NCBI RefSeq assembly: GCF_032362555.1 | Contig: NC_083528.1 | Span: 2,542,001-2,606,000 of the forward strand | Source of the DNA: Amyelois transitella | Taxonomy: Eukaryota; Arthropoda; Insecta; Lepidoptera; Pyralidae | Length of the DNA stretch: 64,000 bases | Reading direction: 5' to 3' | Part shown: positions 20,164-64,000 of the stretch, piece by piece | How the letters are laid out: the number at the start of each line of letters is the position of its first letter | How positions within the stretch are numbered: the stretch's first letter is position 1 | Made by a program: the position numbers and the translations under genes | The notes under the pieces: generated by a model | Told to the model about the DNA's origin: nothing | Seen by the model: only the letters and a program-made list of their open reading frames with translations | Database searches by the model: none

Positions 20164-23100
20164 TTAACTGTCTTCTAGAAGATTGTGCAGTTCCGCATAG
20201 TTGAGTATGGCACGGTGGAGGAATTCATACTGCAACTGTGGAAAGAGATTTCCATTTATAACATAATACCAGTTGGAATAACAAATGACAGTTGATATAT
20301 TATAGTTCCTCCTCTACCAGCGTTCGTAGCATGACACGCGCGACGCTATTTTTATCGCGCAATAAACTATCGCTGTCCCGTTACACGTTAGACAGGAAAC
20401 GGGAATTTGTAACTGCCAAACTGAATTACAAATGACAATTCAAATTTAAATTTTTTATTCATTATTATGGGCACTTAATAATTGTCATATCTTTTGGTTT
20501 CACAACATTTGGTTATTATATTTTAGTCCATGTTAGACTTTCACCTATCTGGAACACGAGAAGCGCTTTTTGACTATGAACCTGACCCAGAAAACAAACA
20601 GCGATAGTTTTACAAATCGCGCGATTTAAACGGTTATTACATTTTAGTTTTTTTATAAATTTCAGCAACACGATTCTCTTAAAAACAAACGTTGTTTTGC
20701 CATATAAATTATTTAAAAGTAATTTCTAGTTTAAAAAAAATGTTAATAGTGGACAACCCTTATCACTAAGGGGTATAAAAAATAGATGCTCAATATAAGC
20801 TTACAAAATTTCACGAGAATCGGTCAAGCCGTTTCGGAACAGTCTATACGGGAACGCACATTGTGACACGAGAATTTTATACATACATATGGTCACGTCT
20901 GTAACCCTTGCGGGGTAGACAGAGCCAACAGTCTTGAAAAGACTGACTGGCCACGTTCAGCTGTTTGGCTTAATGATAGAATTGAGATTCAAATAGTGAC
21001 AGGTCGCTAGCCCATCGCCTAAAAAAGAATCCCAAGTCTGTAAGCCTATCCCTTATTCGCCTTTTACGACATCCATTGGAAAGAGATGGAGTGGTCCTAT
21101 TCTTTCTTTTCTAATGGTGCCGGGAACCACACGGCAATATAAGTATAACAAATATATTAGAAAGATATCAGATATATATTTTATATATATATATGTATAT
21201 AAGGACTCACGAAAGTGTCTATGGTGCCGTTCCTTTGCGCCCTGACCTTCCTGGCGACGCAGTTGACGTCCACGCGGCGCTCCGTGCGCAGCTGGCTGAT
21301 GAGGATGCACAGCGCCACGAACAGCGACGACCGCTCTGTGCCGTAACTGGAAATTGTGAGAAAAAAACAACTTGATGTAGAGTTAATTCTATTGGTTAAG
21401 GTCAAATGGTTAGGAGAGGTATGAATAGCGATGTCCGCTCTATGCCATAACTGGAAATAATTAGATATAAAAAATAATTTAATTGAATTCATTGCTTTCT
21501 TTTGGTACGGAATTATACAAAAACTGATTAAGATTGTACACTACAAAATAATTTAGAAAAAACACATACATAATATAAAAATAAAAATATATTTTACTTT
21601 ACAAATTATAATTGATACAATAAAGAATAATTGAAATCACGCCTTTGTTGATATATCCAGATCTTATTACGGACATATTTTTTCCATTCCCTTCCATCTC
21701 TTTCAAATAACACCGATAAAACCTGACTTAACCAATCCATGATCATGGTGAAATGCACACTTTGTGCTCTTACTCAGAGCTGAGGATGGGGGAAACGGTT
21801 AGGAATTCTCCCATTGGGTTAGCTACTATCACCGCTAGACAGGCAGCAGTCTTCTTTTATACAAGTTTCTGCTGGGGCTGGAAATTGAGATTCCTGAGTC
21901 TTAACTTTAGCACGTTGACCACGCCTTGTTTAGATATCAACTTATTTATTTCTATGTGTGTGGGGGAGACACTTCAATTTTTTTTTATTGTGTTTAATTT
22001 GCTTGCCTGCATATTGCGCACATTATTTTTCTAACTGTCAAAATTATTGTACCTAATGATTTCTTATTACCTACTTATATTTCTTAGTACCTATTGATTT
22101 GGATTGTTACCCATAACACGCTGGTTTTACCCCTGCAACTGGTCAAGCAATCAGAATTGACTTATGTTGCGTACAAATGCGCACGTCACATTCACATCGG
22201 CTGTCGGTGCGCTAAATAAAGAAACACTAGCTGTGCCCCGCGAATTCGTTCGCGTGGAATAGTTATTTTGGTCATCATTGAAGCCCTCAAGAATGAATAA
22301 TTTTCCCCATTTTTTTTTTCACATAATCCATTATTTCTTTGCTCCTTATAGTTGCAGCGTGATGTTATATAGCCATAAGCGTTCCTCGATAATTGGTCTA
22401 TTCAACGCAAAAATAATTTTTCAATTGGAACCAGTAGTTCCTGAGATTAGCGCGTTCAAACAAACAAACTTGTTGGTAACAATGTAATAGGCGTGTGTTA
22501 TTTTTTTATATTTGTATGCTGGTAACACTGAGGATACTGTTCTTAAAATAATTGTGTGTGCTGCCTTTTGTAAAGTTTCTATACATTTCAATAAAAGTCT
22601 TCTATCAAGTATTCATTGTTTTTACTAAATTAAAAAAAACTATATACATATGATCACGTCTGTATCCCTTACGGGGTAGACAGAGCCAACAGTCTTGAAA
22701 AGACTGATGGGCCACGTTCAGCTATTTCAAACAAACTGTTCAGCTTTATAATATAAGTATAGATTTGTGTGTGGTGTTGCGGACTCACAGACAGTGCTGC
22801 AGCGTGGTGCCGGCGGCGGACGGCAGCGCGTCGGCCAGCTCGGCCAGGCCGCGCGTGACCTCGGGCACGTGGCCGGGCGCCGTGGGCCAGCCCTGGTACT
22901 GCAGCTGCCGCACGGCGTGCGTCTCGCCGCTCTGCAACAACATACACGGCTCCCGTTACTCTTCATGGCATTATTTCATTAAATAGTGGCCGTATTGGAT
23001 ACTATACTAGTAAAATAAGGGATTAAAACCCAATGACATATATTGTAACAGTATATCCTAAACATTGACATACATACATATAATCACGTCTATATCCCTT

Positions 23101-26100
23101 GCGGGGTAGACAGAGCCAACAGTCTTGAAAAAACTGTTAGGCCACGTTTTGTTTTAAGATAGAATTGAGATCTAAATAGTGACAGGTTGCTAGCCCATCG
23201 CCTAAAAAAAGAATCCCAAGTTTATAAGCCTATCCCTTAGTCGCCTTTTACGACATCCATGGGAACGAGATGGAGTGGTCCAATTCTTTTTTTATTGGCG
23301 CCGGGAACCACACGGCACTATTGTTTACTTTGCTAGTAAAATAAAGAATTTAAAAACATATATATCACTACATAGTTTTAAACTATGTAGTGATATATAT
23401 GTAGATGCCACTCACCCTGGTATCAGTGAGCCTGAACTGCCGCCGCGTGTAGTACGGACAGGACTCGCTCTCCTCGTACTGCACCGAGATGTTGTCATAC
23501 TGCGCCGTTCCATCGTCCCAATATCTCGGACACTTGCCTTCGCCCAGCTGAATGTGGAGATTTAATTGAATCATTAGGAGAACATACATATATACGCATA
23601 AATAATCACGTCTATATCCCTTGTGGGGGTAGACAGAGAAAACAGTCTTGTAAAGACTGATAGGCCACGTTCAGCTCGCAGGCTTTAAGATAGAATTGAG
23701 ATTTAAATAGTGACAGGTTGCTAGCCCAACGCCTAAAAAATAATCCCAAGTTTGTATGCCTATCCCTTAGTCGCCTTTACCGACATCCATGGGAAAGAGA
23801 TGGAGTGGTCCTATTGTTGTTTGTATTGGCGCCGGGGAAATAGAAAAATTGTATCTATTTCTATCCATCCATACGAATTTTATCAACTAGAGGACGTTTA
23901 TATCTCTGCTAGTTATGCCTGCGACTTCGTCCGCGTGGAATAGTTATTTTGGGCATCATTGAAGCCCTCAAGGATAAATAATATTCCCAGTTTTTTTCAC
24001 ATTTTCCATTATTTCTTTGCTTCTTATAGTTGCAGCGTGATGTTATATAGCCTAAAAGCCTTCCTCGATAAATGGTCCTCTATTCAACACAAAATCAATT
24101 TTTCAATTCGAACCAGTAGTTCCTGAGATAAGCGCGTTCAAACAAACTAAACTCTTCAGCTTTATAATATTAGTATTGATTATTAACTAATGGTTATTTA
24201 CCTCGCTGAGCATGACGATAGTGGACACATTGTGTTCACACACCATCCGCCAGAAATCAGCTATCGTGTTTGGCAAAGGATCTTGTGTGATGATGAAACC
24301 TTCCGAGTTGTCGTACGCTGAGGGAATAAAAAATCAAAACGTTATTATTTATGCCGCAAGTTGTAATTTTGGCGCAATATGCGAAACAAATATTACGATA
24401 AAATAACAAAGCTTTATTTCATAAATAAAAAGTTGACAGATATTTTTGAATTAGTAATTTTAATACCCTAAGAATTTTTAACGTGGTTATTTTTTATTAT
24501 GGTGTAATTTAAATTTGGCGCCTTCCTGGCAACACAAATACTTTTATTTTATCTGTGACAACTTACTTCCGCTCTCTCTGTAATTCCAGTTTTTGTTGTA
24601 TCCGGTCATAGTTAAAGTAAATCCTAATAAATCCATCATTTATTATTACATTTTCAGACGTAAGACTTTCACGCAAGAAGTTCGTTAAAGAAAATATAAA
24701 CTTGGATATATGATTACCGCTATATTTTTTAACCGCGACCCCACCACACGCTTATCTAAAATCCAAAACTCCGAGGGCGACACTAGTTTTTTCACCCCCC
24801 TTTTCCTGTCACCGCTTAAAACGCAGTCAAAAATGCGATTAGTCCAATTCCCCTCTCACTTGCCTTCAATGAACGAAGCGTTGATGTATAAAATCCAAAA
24901 CTCCGAGGCCGCCACTAGTCTTTTCACCCCCACTTTTTCCTGTCACCGCTTGAAACGCCATCAAAAATGCGAGTAGTCCAATTCCCCTCTCACTTGCCTT
25001 CAATGAACGAAGCGTTGATGTATAAAATCCAAAACTCCGAGGCCGCCACTAGTCTTTTCACCCCCACTTTTTCCTGTCACCGCTTGAAACGCCATCAAAA
25101 ATGCGAGTAGTCCAATTCCCCTCTCACTTGCCTTCAATGAACGAAGCGTTGATGTAAGTAGAGAAGTCCCTCCCCGGTATGGGGGTGAGTATGACCCTGT
25201 TCCGGTCGTAGGGCAGGTAGTCCTGGCTGCGGTTCTTGGCGCGCACCTCGTCCCCGGCGCCGGCCGCGCAAGACTTCACGGGCTCGGCCACTGGACTGTT
25301 TATCATTTTCTGAAAACATTTGGTGAATGATTAGCGGATTTTACTGTTAGTGCCTTAAACTATACTTTTTTATTTATTTATTTATTAATGGAAGGCTTAC
25401 AGTCTAATTTATATGATATATATAAGTAATAATAATATAATGCGATTGCTAATTACAAGACTTCACAAGTAGAATTGCAACCATGGGAAGATTATACGGT
25501 TATAGTATATGGTTTAGGGTCCCAAGATTTCCGAGTTGGATTACAGTTAGGACAGAATAAAGCCAGTTTTTAACGATACTTTTTTATAAACAGTCGCAGT
25601 AAGAACCAATGAAAGAATTGAATTGATATCTGTCATGATAACATGAGCTTCCAATATGTTTTTTTTTTGGAAATTCCTACGAACGTCACGAGACAGCTTC
25701 GGATGGTTTGATGTCATAATGTATTTAATATATAATATATACGGGACAAATTACACGGATTGAGTTGGCCTCGAAGTAAGTTCGAGACTTGTGTTACGAG
25801 ATACTAACTCAACGATACTATATTTTATAATAAATACTTATAGAGATAAACATCCAAGACCCAGGCCAATCAGAAAAAGTTCTTTGCTCATCATGCCCTG
25901 GCCGGGATTCGAACCCGGGACCTCCGGTGTCACAGACAAGCGTACTACCGCTGCGCCACAGAGGCCGTCAAATATTATCGTATTAATTTATAATATAAAA
26001 AATGGAATAAAAACCTCGAATTCAACCTCCATGAGACATTTGTAAGCTCTTTGGAATGTTTCTCAGTGGGTCGATTTACGCCTTCTAACGGGTACTTGTA

Positions 26101-29100
26101 ATCTAAATGTCTAGTATTCTTCTGCCATAATCCACGCTTCTAAATTCAAACATGTTTTGTTCCTAAAGCTATGAACTAATAACATACATACATAAAATCA
26201 AGCCTATTTCCCGGAGGGGTAGGCAGAGACTACCTCTTTCCATTTGCCACGATCTCTGCATACTTCCTTCGCTTCATCCACATGCATTGCATAACTCTCT
26301 TCATGCAAGCTCGGCGGTTGAACTAATAAACATACCTCAAACTCTACTTCCATGAGACATTTGTCAGCGCCCTCTGGCGTGTTCCTCAGGCGGTCGATGG
26401 ACGCCTTCAGGCGAGAAGCCGGAATTTCCGTGTCGCCATAATGCGCGTACTCCACCAGCGCACGGTACACGAACACGTATTGTTTCTGTGGAGATGGAAA
26501 TATTTTATTATTTTTATTATGTTCAATTCAATTCAGAAATTATGAAAAAACACGTGACAATTGTTTCTCGTTCCGCCAGTTTTTTCCGTTCAGTGTTCTT
26601 TTAGGTGATGATCTATGGTCAATTTCATTAGGTACTGAAAAAGGTTGACAAACTTGAAACGTCTTTTTGTTGCTGTACTCGCTACTGAACCAAAATTCTC
26701 GGATATTTATCTATTTAAGTATAAGTTTTTATTATAAAATACCGCTGCCGTCGAGCACGGGTAGAAGTGGCAGGCCGAAACGATCGTGGCTGGACGTCGC
26801 AAAAGATGATACGCGAGCCAATGTACTGAAATCCGAGGACACCGATAACCGGACCAAATGGACAGAGAAATGTCGGAAGGCGGACCCCGGGCCCCGAAAC
26901 ACTTCTGTGGAGGGTGCAACCGGGACACGCGCAGAGATATAAGAGAGAATTTATTATCTATACTAATATTATAAAATTGAAGAGTTTGTTTGTTTGTTTG
27001 TTTGAACGCGCTAATCTCAATAACTACTGGTTCGAATTGAAAAATTATTTTTGTGTTGAATAGACCATTTATCGAGGAAGGCTTTAGGCTATATAACATC
27101 ACGTTGCAACTATGAGGAGCAAAGAAATAATGGAATAAGTGAAAACAACGGGGAAAATTATACATCCTTGAGGGCTTCAATGATGTCCAAAAAGTAACTA
27201 TTCCTTGTGGACGAAGTCGCGGGCACAGCTAGTAAAATATAGAAACTTACTTTGGCGCTAACTCAATCTAAGCTTATTGCCTCATACATACATAAAATAA
27301 CGCCTCTTTCCCGGAGAGAGAGAGACAGAGACTACCACTTTCCACTTGCCACGATCTCTGCATATTTCCTTCGCTTCATCCACACACATAACTCTCTTCA
27401 TGCAAGCTCGGCGGTTTCGGGTACTTTTGACCTCTTTTTGCCTCATATATAGATATTTACATACATATGGTCACGTCTATACCCCTTGCGGGGTAGACAG
27501 AGCCAACAGTCTTGAAAAGACTGAATGGCCACGTTCAGCTATTTGGCTTAATGATATAATTGAGATTCAAACAGTGACAGGTTGCTAGCCCATCGCCTTA
27601 AAAAATAATCCCAAGTTTGTAAGCCCTAAATCCCTTAGTCGCCTTTTACGACATCCATAGGAAAGAAATGGAGTGGTCCTATTCTTTTTTGTATCGGTGC
27701 ACGGGAACCGCACACGGCTATAGATATAATATAGATATTGATTGATCCGCATACCAGCGACTGCACCAGGAAGTTCCTCTGGCGGCGGAGCTCGCAGACG
27801 GTGTTGAAGACGGCGGCGTGGCCGGTGGCGCGCAGCTGCTCCAGCAGGCAGTCCAGCGCCACCAGCGTGCCCGTGCGGCCCACGCCGGCCGAGCAGTGCA
27901 CCACCGCCGGCCGCCCCACCATGCCCGCCCACGCCTCGTTCACGCGCTGAATTGGTCACAATCGACATACATACATATGGTCAGGTCTATATCCCTTGTG
28001 GGGTAGATCCAAAAGTCTTGAAAAGACTGATAGGCCACGCTCAGCTATTTGACTTAATGATAGAATTGAGATTCAAATAGAAACAGGTTGCTAACCCATT
28101 GCCTAAAAAAAGAATCCCAAGTTTGTAAGCCATTTCACATTTCAGGCACAATCGACATACACATATATATATAATCACGTCTAAATCACTTTTCTATTTT
28201 TTAAAAAGTTGACATTACATATATACATGTGATATATAATCACGTTTATATACCTTGCGGGGCAAACCAAGCCAACAATTTTCAAAAGTTTGATTGGAAC
28301 GTTCAACTGTTTGGCTCTTTGATAGTATTGATATTCAAATAGTGACAGGTTGCTAGCCCATTGCCTAAAAAAAGAATGCCAAGTTTCTAATCCTAGCCTT
28401 AGTCGCCTTTTTCATCAATGGAAAAGATATGGAGTGGTTTAATTCTTTTTTCAATCCATATATGGAATTTATAAAACAGTTAATGTAGAAACTCTTGTTA
28501 TTGAGTGATGATCAGTGACACAACCGAAACTTTTGATCGTAGAAGGTGTAAAAGCTTCGTTGACGCGTTGAAAATTCAATCTGAAAATCTCAAATCCATC
28601 TCATTTAGCCATACAGCTGAATATGGCTTTTCAATCTTTTTCAGTAACGGCACTGTCTACCCCGCAAGGGATGTCGACGTTACTATATATATGTATATTT
28701 ATTACAATGTAAAACGAAAATAACAGACGATATGCATATCATAGAGGTATTGAAATTGATGTACTTTTCCATGTATATCGCATTACTGTATCTAGTCTCG
28801 AGCATATAAGACTATATCTTAAATCTCTGTCATTATTTAGATCATCAACATAGCACACATCAAAACTAAATCGTAGAAACATGAAATTTCGGTTTCTCAG
28901 TAATTCGAAAATTATTAGCAGTTGATGCATATCAAGAGAAACATTTGTAGAGTAAATAAAAAAAAAAACTTCATATCTACATGAACGAATTGGTCAGAGA
29001 AAAATTATATTTTACCTTTATAAACTTGAGTATGGAGTGTGGATGTTCAGGAGCCGCGAAGTCCTTCCACATGAGGAAGTGGTACTGCTTCACCAGCCGG

Positions 29101-43800: not shown

Positions 43801-46800
43801 CGATTTGTTGAAATGAAGTGAGGTAAGGTTCTTGCTTTACATCTTTTTTACGCCATTGAACTTCTTTTGGTGGTTTGTATACTGGAATAAAGTTTGTACT
43901 GAATATAATGGTTTAATCAGAGTTGTGATTAAACAAGTAAAAACAAAAAATTGTTTAAATTCTAGCAATGTAAGGTTTCTATGACTTTCAAGGCATTCAT
44001 TTAAAATATATTATTAAAACTGCATGTATCTTAAAATGCTTATGTTAACTACAAAACTAAAAAAAAAATTTTTTGTAAAAAACCTTGTCTTCTTTTATCT
44101 TCTGCTCTCATTGACCAAGTTTTCTTGAAGACATGATTTTAATGACAATTATACCTTCAAAAATGCAGTACAGCTCAAAATTCGTAGTATCAGTCTTGTT
44201 ATGTTCTACGGGTCCGCTCGTCTTGTTCAGCAGCTTGCTCTCGAACTTCAAGTCGAGCACCTGGGTGTGGTTGCCCACTGTGACGTCACCGTCCGTCACC
44301 AAGCACGTGTAGTTCCCGGCGTCCGATGACGTCACATTAGTTAAGACAACAGTTGAGGTCTGCTTCTTGATGGGATTTCCGTCCTCGTCCCTCGTCACGT
44401 TCTCTTCTCGGACGCTCTCTTTTATCCTGTAAGTACTGTATTGTTAATACAACTTCATGGGCTTTAAAAAAAAAATATTTTTGATTTCGATTTTAAGTGA
44501 TTGTTTAATTTCCCACTAAACATTTTCTAAATAAATGAGCATATAGAACAAAACACCCTCACGAACACGCATTTAGTCACGTCGATATCCTTTACGGAGT
44601 ACACAGTGCCAACAGTCTTAAAAAGACTGAAAGGCCATGTTCAGCTGTATGGCTTTATGATTAAATTGGGATTTAAATAGTGTTGTGAATAAATTTCCAG
44701 CCCATCATGTACAAGAGGACCCTTTGTCGCCTTTTACGACATCCATGGGAATGATGTAGAATGGTCCTATTTTAAAGTTTAAAAAAAGCAAGCATTAGCC
44801 AATTTCCATCTGTTGCAAATTGATGAATTTCTGAAAAATTAAATAAACTTTTTCAAATAATGAAAAGCCAAGATTGTCATAATCTCATTGCCTTGATGTT
44901 GATCAATGTAAGCTTAGTGATGGAAATCTTTTAAAATAAGATAAAGTGTTAATTATACCCACTTCAAAACAGAGCAATAATTGTTGTTTAACTTGCGTGT
45001 ATATTTTTATCTTTATCAGTTGCGGTATGAGTGTTAAAATATAAATAAATGTTGCTACAATACACTTATTGTCCTTGTTACTGCAATATGCCACACAATC
45101 AGTTTCCTCATTTCAGTATTTCTGAACTTGAAGACTTATAAAACTTGGGATTTTTCTTATGGGAATGGGCTAGCTAGCAACCTGTCACTATTTGAATCTC
45201 AGTGGTAATTTAATCTACAATTGAAAAATACTGACCTGTCACCAAACTCCAGTTTGATTCCATTGAATCTCCAAGTAACATTCATGGTCGGGTTGTGGGG
45301 TGTTACATTGCAGACCAAGGTGGCATTCTCTGCCACTTTCCCCTGGACTGCCACTTGGATGTCCAGACTCCATGCTGAAATGAAAAATAATTCAAATTCA
45401 TACTTTTAATCTGACCGCCTCTGTGGCGCAGCAGTAGCACCCTTGTCTGTGACATCGGAGGTCTCAGGTTTAAAATTCTGGCCATGGCATAAAGAGAAAC
45501 GAAATTGATTGATGGACATACATACACACATACATACATAAAATCACGCCTCTTTCCCGGAGGGGTAGGCAGAGACTACCTCTTTCCACTTGCCACGATC
45601 TCTGCATACTTCTTTCGCTTCGTCCACATTCATAACTCTCTTCATACAAGCTCGGCGGTTTCGGGTACTTTTGACCTGACCCTTTACCAGGACGTCCTTA
45701 ATTTGATCAAGATACGTTCGTCTAGGTCTTCCCACTCCGACCTTTCCCTCCACACTCTCCTTGTATATCTGCTTAGTCAACCTGCTTTCATTCATCCTCT
45801 CCACATGACCGAACCATCTTAACATACCCTTTTCTATTCCTGTAACTACATCTTCTTTCACATCACAACATTCCCTTATCACGCTGTTCCTTATCCTGTC
45901 ACTCAATTTCACACCCATCATACTCCTTAACGCTCTCATTTCCACTGCATTTATTCTGCTTTCATGCTTCTTTTGCCATACCCAACTTTCACTCCCATAC
46001 TTGATTGATGGACAGTTATAAATATAAAATTATTAACTTATAAAAGTATGTTATATATTATGTTAAAGAATGCATATTATAATTTATGAAATTATCTTGT
46101 TAATTAATTGCATTTTTTCTAACAAGGCCGTCCTAAAATAAATTTCTTTTATATGTATATTTTTTCAAGTGTTAGGGTAACTCAACTAGTTTATTGTTTA
46201 TTTAAATATATCTGTAAATCTTGTTTTTTTATAATTGAATAGCTCATAATTAAAACCTAAAGAAGACTATAAGCTATGAAAACAAATATCAGTTATTCAA
46301 ACTGGGAATTAATAACATATTAATAATGCATCACAAAGCTGACAACTATTCTAAATGGACAATAACCATCAAAATGACCCCCTACTTTGCCAAGATATAA
46401 GGATCCTGCAGTAACAAATTACATGAAAACTGGAACGGAACCTAGTCTATAGTTAGCGCTGCTGAAATTATTACAAGCAACAAAAGGTGCTATTTTCTTT
46501 ATAAATCTAGATGTGCCCAATATTTCATTAAGATCAGTTACAAGTGTGTAGAGGCACCTTACAAAGTATTGAAACATTTTATGATAATAAAGATACATAC
46601 ATATAATTACGTCTATTTCCCTTGCCAGGTAGACAGGGTGTTGACCCTGTCTACCTGGCAAGGGAAATAGACGTAGTCTTGAGAGGACTGAAAGGCTTCA
46701 CTCAGCTATAATAATGATAATATTTGGAAAATAAAGTCATCTAACACTTTGCACAGAGTATGAGTCTTAATACCTATTTATTTGCAGTGGCTTTGCATTC

Positions 46801-57700: not shown

Positions 57701-60700
57701 AGATTGGGATACCTTACTTTTACTTATTAAGCCAAACAGCTGAATGTGACCTATCAGTCTTTTCGAGACTGATAGCTCTGTCTAAAGAAAGAAAGAGGTC
57801 GACTTCTAGTGCCGGCAAATCTCTTTTTTCTCCTTAAAATCCTTTCTAATCTATAAAGAGGTTTATCTGGATCAAATTTTATTCTTATATTTAATAGCTG
57901 TCCGCGGATTTAAGTCGGATTTAAAAATGAATTATTTTTTCCAGGTAACCTATACCTCCAATGGCGCCAACCAGCGGAGTACAACAACTCCCTGGACCAG
58001 TACGTGGTCACCGTCAGGAAGATACCAGACCTACAGCCTCGGACTAGACTCACTCTGCCTACAAACAAGAACGATATCGAGACTACTATCAGTGTGGTAT
58101 GAGTTTTCTTGAGTATTGAGAATAGGAAGAAGATAAAACATTCGTGTTTTTGTGTCTGTTAGTTTGTGATGCTTGTAATTTGGCACAGATAAAGAATGAA
58201 TGCAGGTAGTCAACGGTTTTAGGACCTCAGAAATAGGATATTAGCATTCCGTAGAAGACAAATGTGGTACCAGCCAGCTAGTTAAATAAATAACACAGTT
58301 ATTTAAATTGTTTTTGACTGTTCTGTTTTCATTTTTAAAAGCGGTTTATATTTGACTACCTTTTCAGCGGGGCTTTGCTCCCATTGGGATTTTTAGAAAA
58401 AAGTAGGTAGTTTGTGTTATTCCTGATGGCTTTGTACTTCGCTGTGCATAATATCATCAAAATCGGTCCAGTTGTTGTTTGAATTTTGTTCTTTTCTCTT
58501 TATATTATTATTGATTATTCTCTAGTTTCTATCTATAGAACGTGGATAATAACAATATTGTGTGTTTGCCAGGAGGTGGACACTTGGAACAACACGAGTT
58601 ACGAGGTCAAGATGTACGCCGCCACGAAATCAGTCGCCAGGGCGCATACCGTCATCAACGGGTCAGAGTCACCTCCTAAGGTAACATTTATAAATGCAAA
58701 ATCTTAAATTTAATAGCTAACTCTTGTCAGCGGAGTTAAGTTGAGCGTTCTCCTTTCATCTCTGCAATTTTTGTTATTTAGATTACAGATGAAGAGTCTG
58801 AATTTTTTTAAGCCTCAGCAGATTCTATTTCTCTCCCTAAAAATGCATTACAAATAAATAGGGCATGGTAAATAATTATTAATAGTTTTAAACCTGAAGT
58901 TTTGGAGCACCGGCACCAATTCAAAAAAGAATAAGATCACTCCATCTAGATGTTGTAAAAGGCGACTAAGGGATAGGCTTATAAGCTTAGGATTAATTTT
59001 AGGCGATGGGCTAGCAACCTGTCCCTATTTCAATCTCAATTCTATCATTAAGCCAAACAGCTGAACCTTTCAGTCTTTTTAAGACTGTTGGCCCTGTCTG
59101 CCCCGCAAGGGATAAAGACGTGACTATATGTATGTATGGTAAGAGGGAAAAAACGTTAGAATTATACGAGGAAACAAAATAGTTTGTACGAGTTAACGAA
59201 CTAATGAAAAGCGATGATTCAGCTTCCCTTGATGTTGTAGTTTCGTATGAATTGTGGTTCTAATTAGTGTTAATTAGATAGCAAGTGTTTTGATGGTTCA
59301 CTCGTAGTGGTTAATAATGTGGTTCTCGTAAATGACGTAGTTTACAAGGTTTAACTAGTTGTCAGTGTTCTAAAGTTCTATTTTATTTCTTCAGTTTTAT
59401 TTTATTTATTTTATTTATTTAAAACGTTACGTCCTCCTTCCTCCTGGCTTTAGTCCCGGTTGCATCCCCACCACTCAAGAGAGGAGCCCGGGGTGTGCCT
59501 TTGACCATGGATCCTGGATTGGGTGAGTCAGGTTTTTACACAAAGCGACTCCCGTCTGACCTTCGCTACCATTGCAGGTAAACCTAACTCGTATTGAATT
59601 GATCATGGTTACACATCCAGTTGCCAGAACAGGTTTCCTCGCGATGTTTTTTCTCACCGTTAATATTCAAACTAATGCACATAACTTCAAAAATAGTCAT
59701 TGGTACATGGCTGAGGTGGGATTTGAACATGCGCCTTTCTGCGCATCACGCATTTTAAACGGGCACCTTGCGAATTCGACCACCGATCCTCAAACGTGCC
59801 GTGTGGTTCCCGGCACCAATAATAGGACCACTCCGTCTCTTTCCCATGGATGTCGTAAAAGGCGACTAAGGGATAGGCTTACAAAGTTGGGATTCTTTAT
59901 AGGCGATGGGCTCGCAACCTGTCACTAGTTGAATCTCAATTCTATCATTAAGCCAAATAGCTGAACGTGGCCATTCAGTCTTTTGGCTCTGTCTACCCCG
60001 CAAGGGATATAGACGTGACCATATGCATGTATCCTCAAACTTGAACATTTCTAATATATCTTTTTTCCACCAGGAGGTGTCAAGTGAATGGTGTTCCACC
60101 CACTCGGAAGCCATGTCTCCACCCAGCGAACAAGGCGCCCGTTCTGGCGGAGTTAGCACGGCCGCTTTGCTTGCGGTCGCGCTGATTCCCATACTGGCCG
60201 CTTTGCTTCTGGCGCTTGTCTATTGGAGGTGAGTAACGTCGACTGAAGAACGTTCTAGAAGGAGAAAATATGCTCTGAATGGTCTAGAAGCAGGAATCAC
60301 GCTTTGCTTGCGGTCGCGCTGATTCTCATACGTTGATTCCCGCTTTGCTTCTGGCGCTTGTCTATTGGAGGTGAGTAACGACGACTGTCGAAGGTTCCAG
60401 AAGAAGGAACCAGTCTTTGCTTGCGTCTTTCCTAACGAACATTAGTTGTCGGACACAAAGTTCTAGAAGGAGTAAACATGACGTCCATTGCTGAATGTTA
60501 TATAGAAAATGTTATGATTCTTATTACTTGTTTTCTTTTTCATAGTTATTACAATTAGTTGACATATTTGTTCTTTTATTTTGTCTTATATATGTTACTG
60601 GAATAACAGGTGTTATTTGTCCTAGGTGTAGATCTCGACTAAGCAAGTGCATCAGCGCCGCTTACAATTACCTGGAGGAGGGCGGAGAGAGGGCTGCCAG

Positions 60701-63700
60701 GGCGCCGCTGAACGCTTACAAGAAACCTGGTGAGGAAACTTTAAGTTCTGTTTGGATTTGTAAATGTCGATAAATATTATCTTATGTCGTCCAAAATGGC
60801 TCTGGATTGAGACGATTGGGGGAAATATAAGAGATGAAGGGTTAAAGCAAAGGTACAGAGAACTATAAGGTTAGAAAATATGACAAATAATCGATAATAT
60901 CCTAGTCATTTAAGAAGAAAAAGATATATTTATTTTAAAAAGAGAAAGTTTTATTTTATTTTTTAATTTAACAACTACATATCGGCTGAAAATATCAATA
61001 TGAAATCTAAATATTAGGGCACTGGAAATGGAGATCAAACGGGAGTCGCTTCGTAAAGTTACCTTAATACTATTGTTAATGGATTAATATAATACATAAG
61101 CTATACAAACGCGACGACTCACATTAACACAAAACATAACCTCCCCAGTAGCGGCGTGCTCCCCCGTGCGCGCGGCGAGCAGCGGCGCCGGCAGCGAGGC
61201 GGAGGCGGTGTCCTCCCCCGCGCCGCCCCCCCGCATGGCCTCCCCCCACCACCCCGCCGTGCCCGCCGCCGCCTTCCCGCGACACGTGGCCGCGCTGCAC
61301 GCCGACGGCGACATCGGCTTCAGGTACACGCAGCCCCCCGCCCCCCGCCCCCCGCGACACGTGGCCGCGCTGCACGCCGACGGCGACATCGGCTTCAGGT
61401 ACACGCAGCCCCCCGCCCCCCGCCCCCCGCGACACGTGGCCGCGCTGCACGCCGACGGCGACATCGGCTTCAGGTACACGCAGCCCCCCGCCCCCCGCCC
61501 CCCGCGACACGTGGCCGCGCTGCACGCCGACGGCGACATCGGCTTCAGGTACACGCAGCCCCCCGCCCCCCGCCCCCCGCGACACGTGGCCGCGCTGCAC
61601 GCCGACGGCGACATCGGCTTCAGGTACACGCAGCCCCCCGCCCCCCGCCCCCCGCGACACGTGGCCGCGCTGCACGCCGACGGCGACATCGGCTTCAGGT
61701 ACACGCAGCCCCCCGCCCCCCGCCCCCCGCGACACGTGGCCACGCTGCACTGCTATTGGTCGTCGCTGCTGGCGACATCGGATACATTAATTGCTCCTAT
61801 ATTATTGGGTTTCCACGCGGACGAAGTCGCGAGTGGCCTCTAGTAGTTTAATAAGTTACTAGTAAAAACACTTGGTCACTTTGATTTTTATAATTGCCGC
61901 TGTACGAACCACCTTTCTCTCACCATTTAACTACTATTTCAGTCCATTTTGTATAAAACATATGAAAATATCTTATCATTCTGATTACAGCAAAGAATAC
62001 GAGATAGTGGTGACGAAGTCTGCGGCGCTGGGTCACACCAGCCACCACAGCCACCGCCCAGAGAACAGACAGAAGAACCGCTACCTCAATATTACTGCTT
62101 GTGAGTAACTTAATGTGATGGTGAATGTAATGAGTAACTAAGTGCCGTGTGGTTCCCGGCAACAATACAAAAAAGAATAGGACCACTCCATCTCTTTCCC
62201 GTGGATGTCGTAAAAGTCGACTAAGGGATAGGCTTACAAACTTGGGATTCTTTTTTAGGCGATGGGCTAGTAACCTGTCACTATTTGAATCTCAATTCTA
62301 TCATTAAGCCAAATAGCTGAATGTGGCCATTCAGTCTTTTCAAGACTATTGGCTCTGCCTACCCCGCAAGGGATATAGACGTGAGCATATGTATGTGTAT
62401 GTATGTATGAGTAACTTAAAATTATTTCAATGTTAAAGTGGTAGGGATTTAGCGTTCATTACCACCATCTATGTCACGTCACGTTTATATCTCTTGTGAG
62501 GTAGGCAGAGCCAGCGGTCTTGAAAGGCCACGTTCAGCTGTTTGGCTCAATGATAGAATTGAAATAGTGAAAGGTTGCGAGCCCATCGCCTATAAGAAGA
62601 ATCCTAAGTTTGTAATCCATGGAAGAGGTGGTATTATTCTTTTTTTGTATTGGTGCCGCGAACCGCACGGCACTACGTTTGCATCTATGGTAACAGTATG
62701 AACAGAGGTTGGCGGAAGATTTGCCTTTTGTTGCGCTGGATAATTAGCTTAATTTCGCTATTGATAGTCTTCTCTCGAGAGAGGTGAAGATGTAACTGGG
62801 CGGAGAAGACTATTGACTTGCTTGTTAAATCGCATTTTGTCTAATGTATTTTAGTTTTTCTACATACATACATTTCACGTCTATATCCCTTGCGGGGTAG
62901 ACAGAGCCAACTGTTTTGAAATGAATGTGCAGCTGTATTCATGATGGAATTGAAATTCGAAAAGTGATAGGTTGTTAGCCCATCGCCCACAAAAGGAATC
63001 CTAAGTTTATAAGCCTATACTTTTACAATATCACTACATAGTATAAAACAAAGTCGCTATTTTAGTCTGTTTGTCTGTATGCTTAAATCTTTAAAATTAC
63101 GCAACGGATTTTGATTCGGTTTTTTGTAACAGGTAGAGTGATTCAAGAGGAAGGTTTTTATGTATAATAACATTTATAATTTTGCACCCGTGCGAAGCCA
63201 GGGCGGGTCGCTAGTCCATTATAAAGATATGAAGTGTTTCTACTGTGAAGTGGCGGAAACCACACGTCACATTTATAATCGTGTTATTTATAACAATGTA
63301 TGGTGCAGACGACCACTCGCGCGTGTGCGTGTCGGCGGGCGGGCGCTGCGGCGCGGCGGGCTGCGCGGGCGCGGGCGGCGCGGGCGGCGCGCGCTGCGAC
63401 TACGTCAACGCCAACTTCATCGACGGCATGCGCCCGCGCCTCACGCGCCGCGCGCTCGCGAGGCTGCGCCGCAAGCTGGACCGGCGCGCCAGGCCGCACA
63501 GGTAACCCTACAAACCTCTATTCTGTCTAGTCACCATATTTAGACAAAAAAAAATTTACCTGAATCCAAGCGAGCTTATATTTTCTTAAAAGGGAATTCC
63601 GATAAGAGCTACTGAAGAAATGACAAGCAATTTCTTGGGTTATTATAAAGCTGAAGAGTTTGTTTGTTTGAACGCGCTAATCTAAGGAACAACTGGTTCG

Positions 63701-63999
63701 AATTGAAAAATTACTTTTGCGTTGAATAGACCATTTATCGAGGAAGGCTATAAGCTATACAACATCACGCTGCAACTATAAAGAGCAAAGAAATAATGGA
63801 AAATGTGAAAAAAAACGGGGAAAATTATTCATCCTTGAGGGCTTCAATGATCCCCATAACTATTCCACGCGGACGATGTCGCATGCACAGCTAGTTTAAA
63901 ATACAAGGAGCGTGAGTTCGTCGTGTCCATGTTAATTTCAGAATATTCAACCGCAGAAACCGTCGTAGAAGACATAAACGTCGTAGCGGCGTTATCCGC
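48723..63999 (+). CDS. Second receptor-type tyrosine phosphatase, 5' part (runs off the window)
   Basis: Ten phase-consistent exons: 48723-48822, 56548-57231, 57495-57668, 57945-58096, 58573-58680, 60074-60228, 60626-60729, 61149-61323, 61991-62100, 63309-63501 (651 codons plus 2 nt). A possible eleventh starts at 63942. Exon 1 is a signal peptide (IGAIFIIFILCVHC). FN3 domains follow: VPSAPQNLV..ILLSWAPPL with a long basic insert (REVRSHRHRKRRQ), PYKIWVRAFFNTEG, then PPSAPNILDIKC..LYLQWRQPAEYNNS. The transmembrane helix is at about residues 433-456 (AALLAVALIPILAALLLALV). The cytoplasmic part has SKEYEIV, PENRQKNRYLNITAYDHSRV and DYVNANFIDG, the start of a PTP domain. The architecture suggests a Ptp99A-like or related R-PTP, but the subfamily is a guess. 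The P-loop lies beyond the window. Confidence 0.75.
49815..49990 (-). repeat. SINE-like family A, degenerate copy
   Basis: GTACATATAATTACGTCTAT, then GACAGGCCATGTTCAGCTGT. Confidence 0.65.
50260..50525 (+). repeat. SINE-like family A, degenerate copy
   Basis: AGAATAGGACCACTCTCACC, CCATGGATGTCATAAATCGCC, and a second overlapping start GGAAAAGGCTTATAGACTTG. Confidence 0.65.
51025..51180 (-). repeat. SINE-like family A, old copy
   Basis: CACGTCTCCAGCCCTTGGAG and AGGTTGCTTAGCCATTGCC. Confidence 0.5.
51385..51565 (+). repeat. SINE-like family A, internally deleted copy
   Basis: GGTGCCGTGTGGTTCCCGGC head, jump from GGCGATGGGCTAGCAACCTG to GTGTGGCCTATC, tail TGATTATATATGTATATGTA. Confidence 0.75.
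51875..52045 (-). repeat. SINE-like family A copy
   Basis: CATACATACATATAATCACA to GATTGCTAGCC; the CCCTTGCAGAGTTGACAGAG core is present. Confidence 0.7.
52055..52122. repeat. Long perfect palindrome of SINE tails
   Basis: GAACAATCTATCT and ACATACATATAATCACGTGA read the same on both strands about the central CACGTG. Arms are about 32 bp with one or two mismatches. Confidence 0.8.
52375..52622 (+). repeat. LINE-tail repeat family B
   Basis: ACTACGTCCGCGTGGAATAG to CAGCTTTATAATATTCGTAT. Confidence 0.8.
52637..52805 (-). repeat. 3'-end fragment of the window's LINE
   Basis: TCACGCCTCTTTCCCGGAGG and TTCGCTTCGTCCACATTCAT match the 29400 element, then the sequence diverges. Confidence 0.7.
52946..54743. 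mobile_element. 1.8-kb DNA transposon with repeated GTGACGGTCGGGAC motif
   Basis: Terminal inverted repeats GGGGCATTCCAxGGT bound the element. Both ends abut ATCT (52942-52945 and 54744-54747), a 4-bp target duplication. Seven exact copies of GTGACGGTCGGGAC, all in plus orientation, lie at 52959, 53137, 53325, 53347, 54190, 54205 and 54375, with a degenerate one near 54175. They flank the coding part on both sides and probably bind the transposase. I could not assign a superfamily; the 4-bp duplication would fit several. Confidence 0.82.
53473..54032 (-). pseudogene. Accessory or deleted transposon protein, one frameshift
   Basis: The upstream frame (54032-53802) starts MPMDAAERKRLSRARQKEDP, a highly basic helical segment. 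The downstream frame (open from about 53890, stop at 53473) has an acidic stretch (SEDDSDVSSDKS) and then a beta-rich domain (GCFVLVRVENAKRKNKIY, EVKVMYMKNV, SEIIKVLPEP). The two frames overlap, and a single extra A in the A-run near 53907 separates them, so they were probably one protein of about 185 aa. Both end domains resemble those flanking the catalytic core in larger insect transposon proteins. No DDE-type core is present, so the element is likely non-autonomous. Confidence 0.6.
54788..54998. repeat. Two SINE family A fragments in inverted orientation
   Basis: A plus-oriented part at 54788-54885 (CAGGCGATGGGCTAGGGACC) is followed at once by a minus-oriented part at 54889-54998 (GCCCATCGCCTAAAAAAGGC to GCCGGGAACCACACGGCATA). 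Confidence 0.7.
55640..56225. repeat. Diverged direct repeat flanking a SINE
   Basis: About 110 bp (AGCGACGATGAAGAGCTGGA ... CCATATTCCTAGATTATC) recurs at 56115-56220 (AGCGAAGATGAAGGGCTAGA ... CTATATTCCTAGTTTAGT). A minus-oriented family A copy lies between them at 55838-55995. Confidence 0.65.
57715..57785 (+). repeat. SINE-like family A scrap
   Basis: AAGCCAAACAGCTGAATGTG and TTTTCGAGACTGATAGCTCTG. Confidence 0.6.
58908..59138 (+). repeat. SINE-like family A copy
   Basis: GCACCGGCACCAATTCAAAAA to GACGTGACTATATGTATGTA. Confidence 0.8.
59400..59795 (-). repeat. SINE-like repeat with tRNA-type box B (third family)
   Basis: CTTCCTCCTGGCTTTAGTCC, GAGAGGAGCCCGGGGTGTGC and, on the minus strand, a box-B-like GTTCAAATCCCACC near 59720. 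A fragment of the same family occurs at about 42968-43060. Confidence 0.6.
59797..60033 (+). repeat. SINE-like family A, full-length copy
   Basis: GTGCCGTGTGGTTCCCGGCA to TGACCATATGCATGTAT; ends 40 bp before the acceptor of the transmembrane exon. Confidence 0.85.
60164..60440 (+). repeat. Tandem duplicate of the transmembrane exon 3' end plus donor
   Basis: GCTTTGCTTGCGGTCGCGCT at 60164 (inside the exon) recurs at 60301. Both copies run through GCTTCTGGCGCTTGTCTATT into GGAG|GTGAGTAACG. A weaker third start (CTTTGCTTGCGTC) is at about 60414. Unit length is 137 bp. Copy 2 has an in-frame stop (CGTTGA) but keeps a perfect donor. Confidence 0.85.
61281..61760 (+). repeat. 75-bp in-frame array: exon end plus 5' splice site, six full units
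   Basis: GACACGTGGCCGCGCTGCAC starts at 61281, 61356, 61431, 61506, 61581, 61656 and, diverged, 61731. Every full unit contains the last coding stretch of exon 8 and the donor TTCAG|GTACAC, at 61323 and then every 75 bp to 61698. The unit is divisible by three and open, so using a later donor inserts RYTQPPAPRPPRHVAALHAD plus DGDIGF-type repeats of 25 aa. The full units look identical. Confidence 0.92.
62142..62408 (+). repeat. SINE-like family A, full-length copy
   Basis: GTGCCGTGTGGTTCCCGGCA to a long TATGTATGTATG tail. Confidence 0.88.
62470..62685 (-). repeat. SINE-like family A copy
   Basis: CACGTTTATATCTCTTGTGAG to GGTGCCGCGAACCGCACGGC. Confidence 0.75.
62868..63030 (-). repeat. SINE-like family A, degenerate copy
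   Basis: CTACATACATACATTTCACG, CCTTGCGGGGTAGACAGAGC, GTTAGCCCATCGCCC. Confidence 0.7.
63645..63897 (-). repeat. LINE-tail repeat family B
   Basis: Reverse orientation: TTATAAAGCTGAAGAGTTTG to GCATGCACAGCTAGTTT. Confidence 0.8.
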
Positions 64000-64000
64000 A

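Follow-up and report, generated by a model that had tools for sequence, protein, structure and literature searches.

The window, the whole stretch of Amyelois transitella DNA analysed here (64,000 nucleotides, C24:2542001-2606000, C24 being the contig label), carries GC-rich exons set in AT-rich DNA. We annotated by eye 27 exons belonging to two receptor tyrosine phosphatase genes, leaving out two minus-strand exon candidates near 44400 and 43800 whose ends were not located. The minus-strand gene (21211-44443) is transcribed away from the plus-strand one and, by eye, has immunoglobulin-like, fibronectin-like and two phosphatase domains. The plus-strand gene, probably of the R5-type receptor tyrosine phosphatase class (PTPRG/PTPRZ, with Ptp99A), is a receptor phosphatase as originally predicted: its first phosphatase domain is closest to PTPRG and PTPRZ, which supply the best PDB chains (best E 2.6e-13, query residues 1-90), with LAR and PTPRS ranking behind (E ~1e-11). 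Fibronectin type III (fn3) profile matches are weak (E 0.013 and 0.96, under the curated cut-off), and the sole Pfam match of the membrane span is MFS_1, also under its cut-off. Beyond the window, four PF00102 matches lie on the plus strand of C24, the last of which restarts the profile (24-77), a possible beginning of a second phosphatase domain. Where phosphatase sequence should continue after DYVNANFIDG (63420-64000), the reading is instead arginine-rich (MRPRLTRRALARLRRKLDRRARPHR); the following phosphatase-domain match is at C24:2608766.

Table 1. Exons, arrays and duplications. Positions are those of the window unless a contig or stretch is named.
Feature	Position	Strand	Description
Transmembrane exon	60074..60228	+	Membrane span by eye
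Exon between transmembrane and juxtamembrane exons	60626..60729	+	Splice model
Juxtamembrane exon to first donor	61149..61323	+	175 nt; splice model; phmmer match to PTPRG from residue H
Array A	61276..61725	+	Six identical 75-bp units, starting at 61276, 61351, 61426, 61501, 61576 and 61651
Array A donors CAG|GTACAC	61324..61700	+	GT at 61324, 61399, 61474, 61549, 61624 and 61699 (spacing 75)
Seventh, decayed unit	61726..61781	+	Insertions; donor lost
Next exon, KEYEIVVTKSA...NRYLNITA	61991..62100	+	Common acceptor AG at 61989-61990
Exon with YDHSRV...DYVNANFIDG	63309..63501	+	First phosphatase domain; splice model and phmmer
Duplication B	60163..60428	+	60163-60285 copied at 60300-60428, 82% identical
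Duplication C	26006..26408	-	26408-26325 copied at 26085-26006, 77% identical
Array D	24757..25156	-	134-bp unit, three copies; receptor phosphatase gene
Acceptor-side duplication, exon M20	21319..21497	-	21397-21319 copied at 21497-21423, 75% identical
Array G	C24:2620231-2622104 (L003:4231-6104)	+	156-bp unit, 12 copies, 100% identical; strand as for the plus-strand gene in which it probably lies
PI4KB-like exon end	L015:4521-5556	-	Exon end and donor, about six copies, 98% alike
HECT-ligase exon	L011:1260-1593	-	Old donor-spanning duplication

The juxtamembrane exon, seventh of the plus-strand gene as annotated within the window, is flanked in the splice model by introns of 419 nt and of 292-667 nt, the latter depending on the donor. 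Its end, HVAALHADGDIGF, is the start of the first phosphatase domain: human PTPRG (PDB 3qcl, E 2.6e-13) is matched by the junction protein HVAALHADGDIGF|SKEYEIV... beginning at the first residue of the latter. Since the PTPRG match begins at HVAALHADGDIGF, the beginning of the first phosphatase domain recurs in every unit of the array described below.

A donor repeated in frame

At the end of this exon lies a tandem repeat across the exon-intron boundary, made of head-to-tail copies holding both exon and intron sequence, with the border set by the splice model. Each 75-bp unit of array A consists of 48 nt of exon end, the donor CAG|GTACAC and 27 nt of intron head, and no letter differs among the six, exactly as had been reported when the array was first noticed. 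A seventh unit is decayed, as also stated then, but it extends further than had been seen: starting at 61726, it carries one change before departing and can be aligned to 61781 if 14 inserted bases are allowed, without a CTTCAG|GT donor. Between 61149 and 61984 we found no GT matching at least six of nine consensus positions other than the six array donors. By eye, CCCGCG is common to both edges of the unit, and the CAG|GT present in every unit is not preceded by a U-rich tract. One search of its own assembly (327 Mb, 33 contigs) found the array at a single place, this window. Dating it from zero differences in 450 bp at an assumed insect mutation rate gave ~2.3 million generations, a bound too loose to be kept.

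The frame is likewise as predicted: 75 is divisible by three and all six donor choices are open when spliced to the neighbouring exons in the model. Any of the six restores the same phosphatase-domain start, with a predicted linker between membrane span and domain of 79, 104, 129, 154, 179 or 204 residues. Openness of the unit is nonetheless at chance level for its composition. Of its six frames five are open, 95% of 20,000 shuffled intron parts leave it open, and so do 54% of 3,000 stretches headed by GT and drawn at random from the window; we therefore discarded the open frame as a sign of coding. One period in three is expected to be a multiple of three anyway, which leaves the frame as weak evidence for use. 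Predicted RNA accessibility is alike at all six donors (0.036-0.098) and, expressing no preference among them, was set aside as a guide to donor choice. The donor matches the consensus at six of nine positions, and at only one of four from +3 to +6, the lowest of six donor sequences compared.

Sibling duplications at other exon ends

Array A has company. We scored the last 150 nt or less of each of the 27 exons against that exon's own downstream intron, and four, those of arrays A and D and of duplications B and C, stood out (scores of 104, 100, 64 and 50) from the rest (at most 19); the maximum among 702 mismatched pairs was 31. Exon starts scored against their own upstream introns reached at most 31 (exon M20). 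Mismatched pairs in that comparison reach 94, which we attribute to the upstream intron of one exon being the downstream intron of the preceding one. In two further controls, exon ends against upstream introns gave a maximum of 31, and exon starts against downstream introns recovered three of the same four exons, as many exons are 150 nt long or little more. When local duplication groups were instead collected across the window, three of ten were removed as repeat families, and among the seven low-copy groups retained four span a donor and one an acceptor; random placement yields at least four donor-spanning groups at a frequency of 0.00027, in a test devised after the pattern had been noticed.

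The siblings in the window differ in detail (Table 1). Duplication B takes in the end of the transmembrane exon, its donor GAG|GTGAGT and the intron head, and reading through meets a stop 1 nt past donor 1. Duplication C comprises the exon end ..CLMEVEFE, the donor and 11 nt of intron, and the donor of its copy is degraded; between its copies, at 26175-26330, lies an apparent repeat element with the direct repeat TTATTAGTTCA on both sides (by eye). Array D repeats an exon end together with a GC donor, AAG|GCAAGT, and intron head. At exon M20 the intron tail and exon start were copied upstream, the sole acceptor-side case found.

Array G, some 14 kb beyond the window and probably part of the plus-strand gene that holds array A, repeats an exon end, the donor CAG|GTGAGA and some 22 nt of intron; reading through meets an immediate stop. 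Its exon has no PDB match and presumably belongs to the second phosphatase domain. A survey of 25 of 50 phosphatase-domain matches (four in the remainder of the plus-strand gene, the others at five other loci) gave one more donor-spanning copy, on C15 (38 of 46 aligned bases), and no upstream copy. On C12, an exon scoring 57 against its downstream intron was dropped, its match being mostly TA repeat, though the donor is also touched. In 12 of 145 kinase matches, chosen for clustering and scored without a mismatched control, we found a two-copy unit, 98.8% identical, in a CDK12/13-like gene and, in a different kinase, an exon segment copied at 86% identity; no upstream score exceeded 24. Overlapping kinase profile matches on C4 were rejected as a duplication, with no copy between them.

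We also took an arbitrary sample of 19 stretches of 10 kb, one from a fixed position on each of 19 contigs. Seven of the 11 low-copy groups kept were exon-derived, and every extra copy lay in the downstream intron: the PI4KB-like exon end in six copies, the HECT-ligase exon end, two exons of an MTA1-like gene, an ankyrin exon, and groups in L018 and L030. Exon calls here were made by eye; five of the seven have a domain or PDB match, and L018 has no Pfam match. Among the four non-exonic groups L014 was read, and L012, L013 and L019 were classed by their GC content of 0.25 alone. Groups dropped as repeat family or low complexity numbered 17 of 28 in L002-L026 and 3 of 6 in L027-L031. One real case, L033, was at first lost to this filter, its unit carrying a piece of a repeat family, and the filter may conceal more cases of either kind. 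Successive donors of the PI4KB-like array are spaced 173, 173, 171, 171 and 171 nt apart. Diverged siblings at other exon ends have 68-90% identity.

Tandem duplication at exon ends is common in our sample. Exon-derived duplications outnumber purely intronic ones, an excess that is partly expected, since selection holds the exon copy constant and repeat-bearing intronic copies were filtered out. Over all cases, exon copies lie in the downstream intron 15 times and in the upstream intron once (two-sided sign test p = 0.0005, with some cases sharing a gene); 4 of the 15 (L017, L018, L029b and L036) are exon segments without a donor. Restricted to the 64 homology-defined exons, the counts are seven and one (p = 0.07, not significant). 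Our tentative generalisation, which we hold with less than even confidence, is that exon sequence, mostly exon end and donor, is copied downstream at roughly one exon in nine (7/64) and rarely upstream (1/64), that the direction records splice-site choice, and that the copies form a reservoir for arrays (of 6, 12 and 6 copies) and, now and again, for new in-frame coding segments such as the HECT-ligase copy. The direction may reflect a rule by which the first-transcribed site wins at both exon ends: a second donor would then be harmless, and donor-side copies would persist because the upstream donor wins, whereas a new first acceptor would alter the exon, making acceptor-side copies rare.

Which donor is used, and what the array is

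The siblings bear directly on donor use. Nine of the 11 donor-spanning duplications found give no intact protein from donor 2: an in-frame stop lies within 6 nt of donor 1 in duplication B, arrays D and G, L015 and L033, a later one follows donor 1 in duplication C and L030, and L023 and L029a have their second donor in a different frame. A full protein at these nine therefore needs the first donor. Only array A and the HECT-ligase duplication keep the frame and stay open as far as the next donor, and two of 11 is close to expectation if one period in three keeps the frame and half of those escape a stop. The step from frame to length-variable linker in the original prediction thus finds no support, with openness near chance and nine of the 11 duplications permitting the first donor only. 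First-donor use at the nine agrees with a human minigene study (PMC9225289), where two equal strong donors with 365-nt introns led to exclusive use of the upstream one; short introns favoured the downstream donor, and larger constructs with both donors weak skipped the exon. By analogy these data may guide, and do not prove, an expectation for array A, whose flanking introns measure 419 and 292-667 nt, whose donor is weak (6/9) and whose insect host may differ.

The reading we favour, and consider probable, is that array A arose recently as a minisatellite anchored on a donor and does no harm, since the upstream donor still joins 61990/61991 while the extra copies leave with the intron; we infer this donor choice, the mutational route and the neutrality of the array, which would probably be mostly intron. 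Tandem duplication at the DNA level, probably by slippage or through microhomology (the CCCGCG at the unit edges), would have captured 48 nt of exon end, the donor and 27 nt of intron before growing to six copies, and donor-side duplications would occasionally expand in this way to perfect or near-perfect arrays. Neutrality does not explain one feature: in all three arrays of at least six copies there are periods that are multiples of three (75 in A, 156 in G and, for three of the five spacings, 171 in L015).

The original proposal, that several of the six donors are used or that unit number varies between individuals, giving a linker in 25-residue steps, is one that we do not favour and judge unlikely. 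Its strengths are the six open choices spanning 79-204 residues with the same domain start rebuilt, the equal predicted accessibility, and the precedent of PTPRG, whose forms in mouse and in human vary by a 29-residue juxtamembrane exon (PMC11215419). The HECT-ligase duplication also suggests that a donor-spanning copy can turn coding. Its copies are 174 nt apart, both open, with the downstream donor nearer consensus, and differ at ~23 of 117 nonsynonymous and 30 of 39 synonymous sites (pN 0.20, pS 0.77). In a second copy free of constraint, the density of nonsynonymous changes should reach roughly half that of synonymous changes or more; the sequences therefore suggest that this copy has been translated, as was proposed for array A, although rapid synonymous change in the first copy alone could contribute too. 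As the second copy is open and its change mostly synonymous, some downstream donors may be used. Against a variable linker at array A stand the near-chance frame and openness, the 9 of 10 sibling duplications that require the first donor, and the preference for an upstream donor under exon definition (PMC9225289).

Use of the last donor, with all six units translated as a coding minisatellite in the linker, we regard as quite improbable: the reading is open through the sixth donor and the final intron, at 292 nt, would be of the short kind that favours downstream donors in the minigene study (PMC9225289), but such splicing implies a 550-nt exon with 125 extra residues, and in this gene the transmembrane exon, likewise duplicated, has to be spliced from its upstream donor. 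Very improbable, too, is a role for the extra donors as U1 decoys or as an avidity platform that aids a weak donor, the cut still falling at donor 1. The low +3 to +6 match at array A would suit it, as would the nine donor letters kept intact in the diverged copy B and the donor nearer consensus in the HECT-ligase copy; the donors duplicated in B (GAG|GTGAGT) and G (CAG|GTGAGA), however, are not weak, and the copy in duplication C has a degraded one. Least credible is an assembly artefact concealing a real locus with one or two units, since, although perfect identity over 450 bp in array A and 1.9 kb in the 12-copy array could reflect assembly error, the diverged siblings (68-90%) show the process to be real, and perfect arrays are what its youngest products should look like.

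Should annotated genomes show the same direction, such tandem duplications would be a natural test of splice-site competition, in which many repeated donors and few repeated acceptors would show the winning site in living cells without a minigene. The pattern would also offer a route for the stepwise growth of exon ends, and a warning to gene predictors, as such arrays may prompt calls of extra donors or of tandem protein repeats.

Relation to known systems

Published precedents exist for exon-border tandem repeats, for intron gain by tandem duplication and for splice variants of the PTPRG juxtamembrane region; among the matches listed in the open literature, judged by title and start of abstract, we found none describing a genome-wide pattern in which exon ends are copied on the donor side. 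Intron gain by tandem duplication was reportedly the subject of Zhuo et al. in 2007. Tandem alternative donors lie mostly a few nucleotides apart and are defined by transcripts, whereas those of array A are 75 nt apart, identical and predicted from DNA. The two share several in-frame donors served by one acceptor (reportedly, for example, in PMC2423196). PTPRG belongs to a homologous receptor class and has variants that differ by 29 residues just past the membrane span, but these arise by omission of an exon and not by repeated donors like those of array A (PMC11215419).

Intron gain by tandem duplication is described for Drosophila (PMC2891723) and a potato RdRp gene (PMC4974935). As here, the tandem copy takes in AG|GT or a border between exon and intron; unlike there, our copies sit within an existing intron, show no new intron and affect the donor side, whereas the potato duplication crosses an acceptor (PMC4974935). 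Also comparable are the internal tandem repeats at exon-intron boundaries of human segmental-duplication genes, which are minisatellite units like ours, mostly in frame when coding, recent and variable in copy number (PMC2812944). That work compared transcripts and paralogs; ours, from one genome, adds a donor-side direction and needs no duplicated gene.
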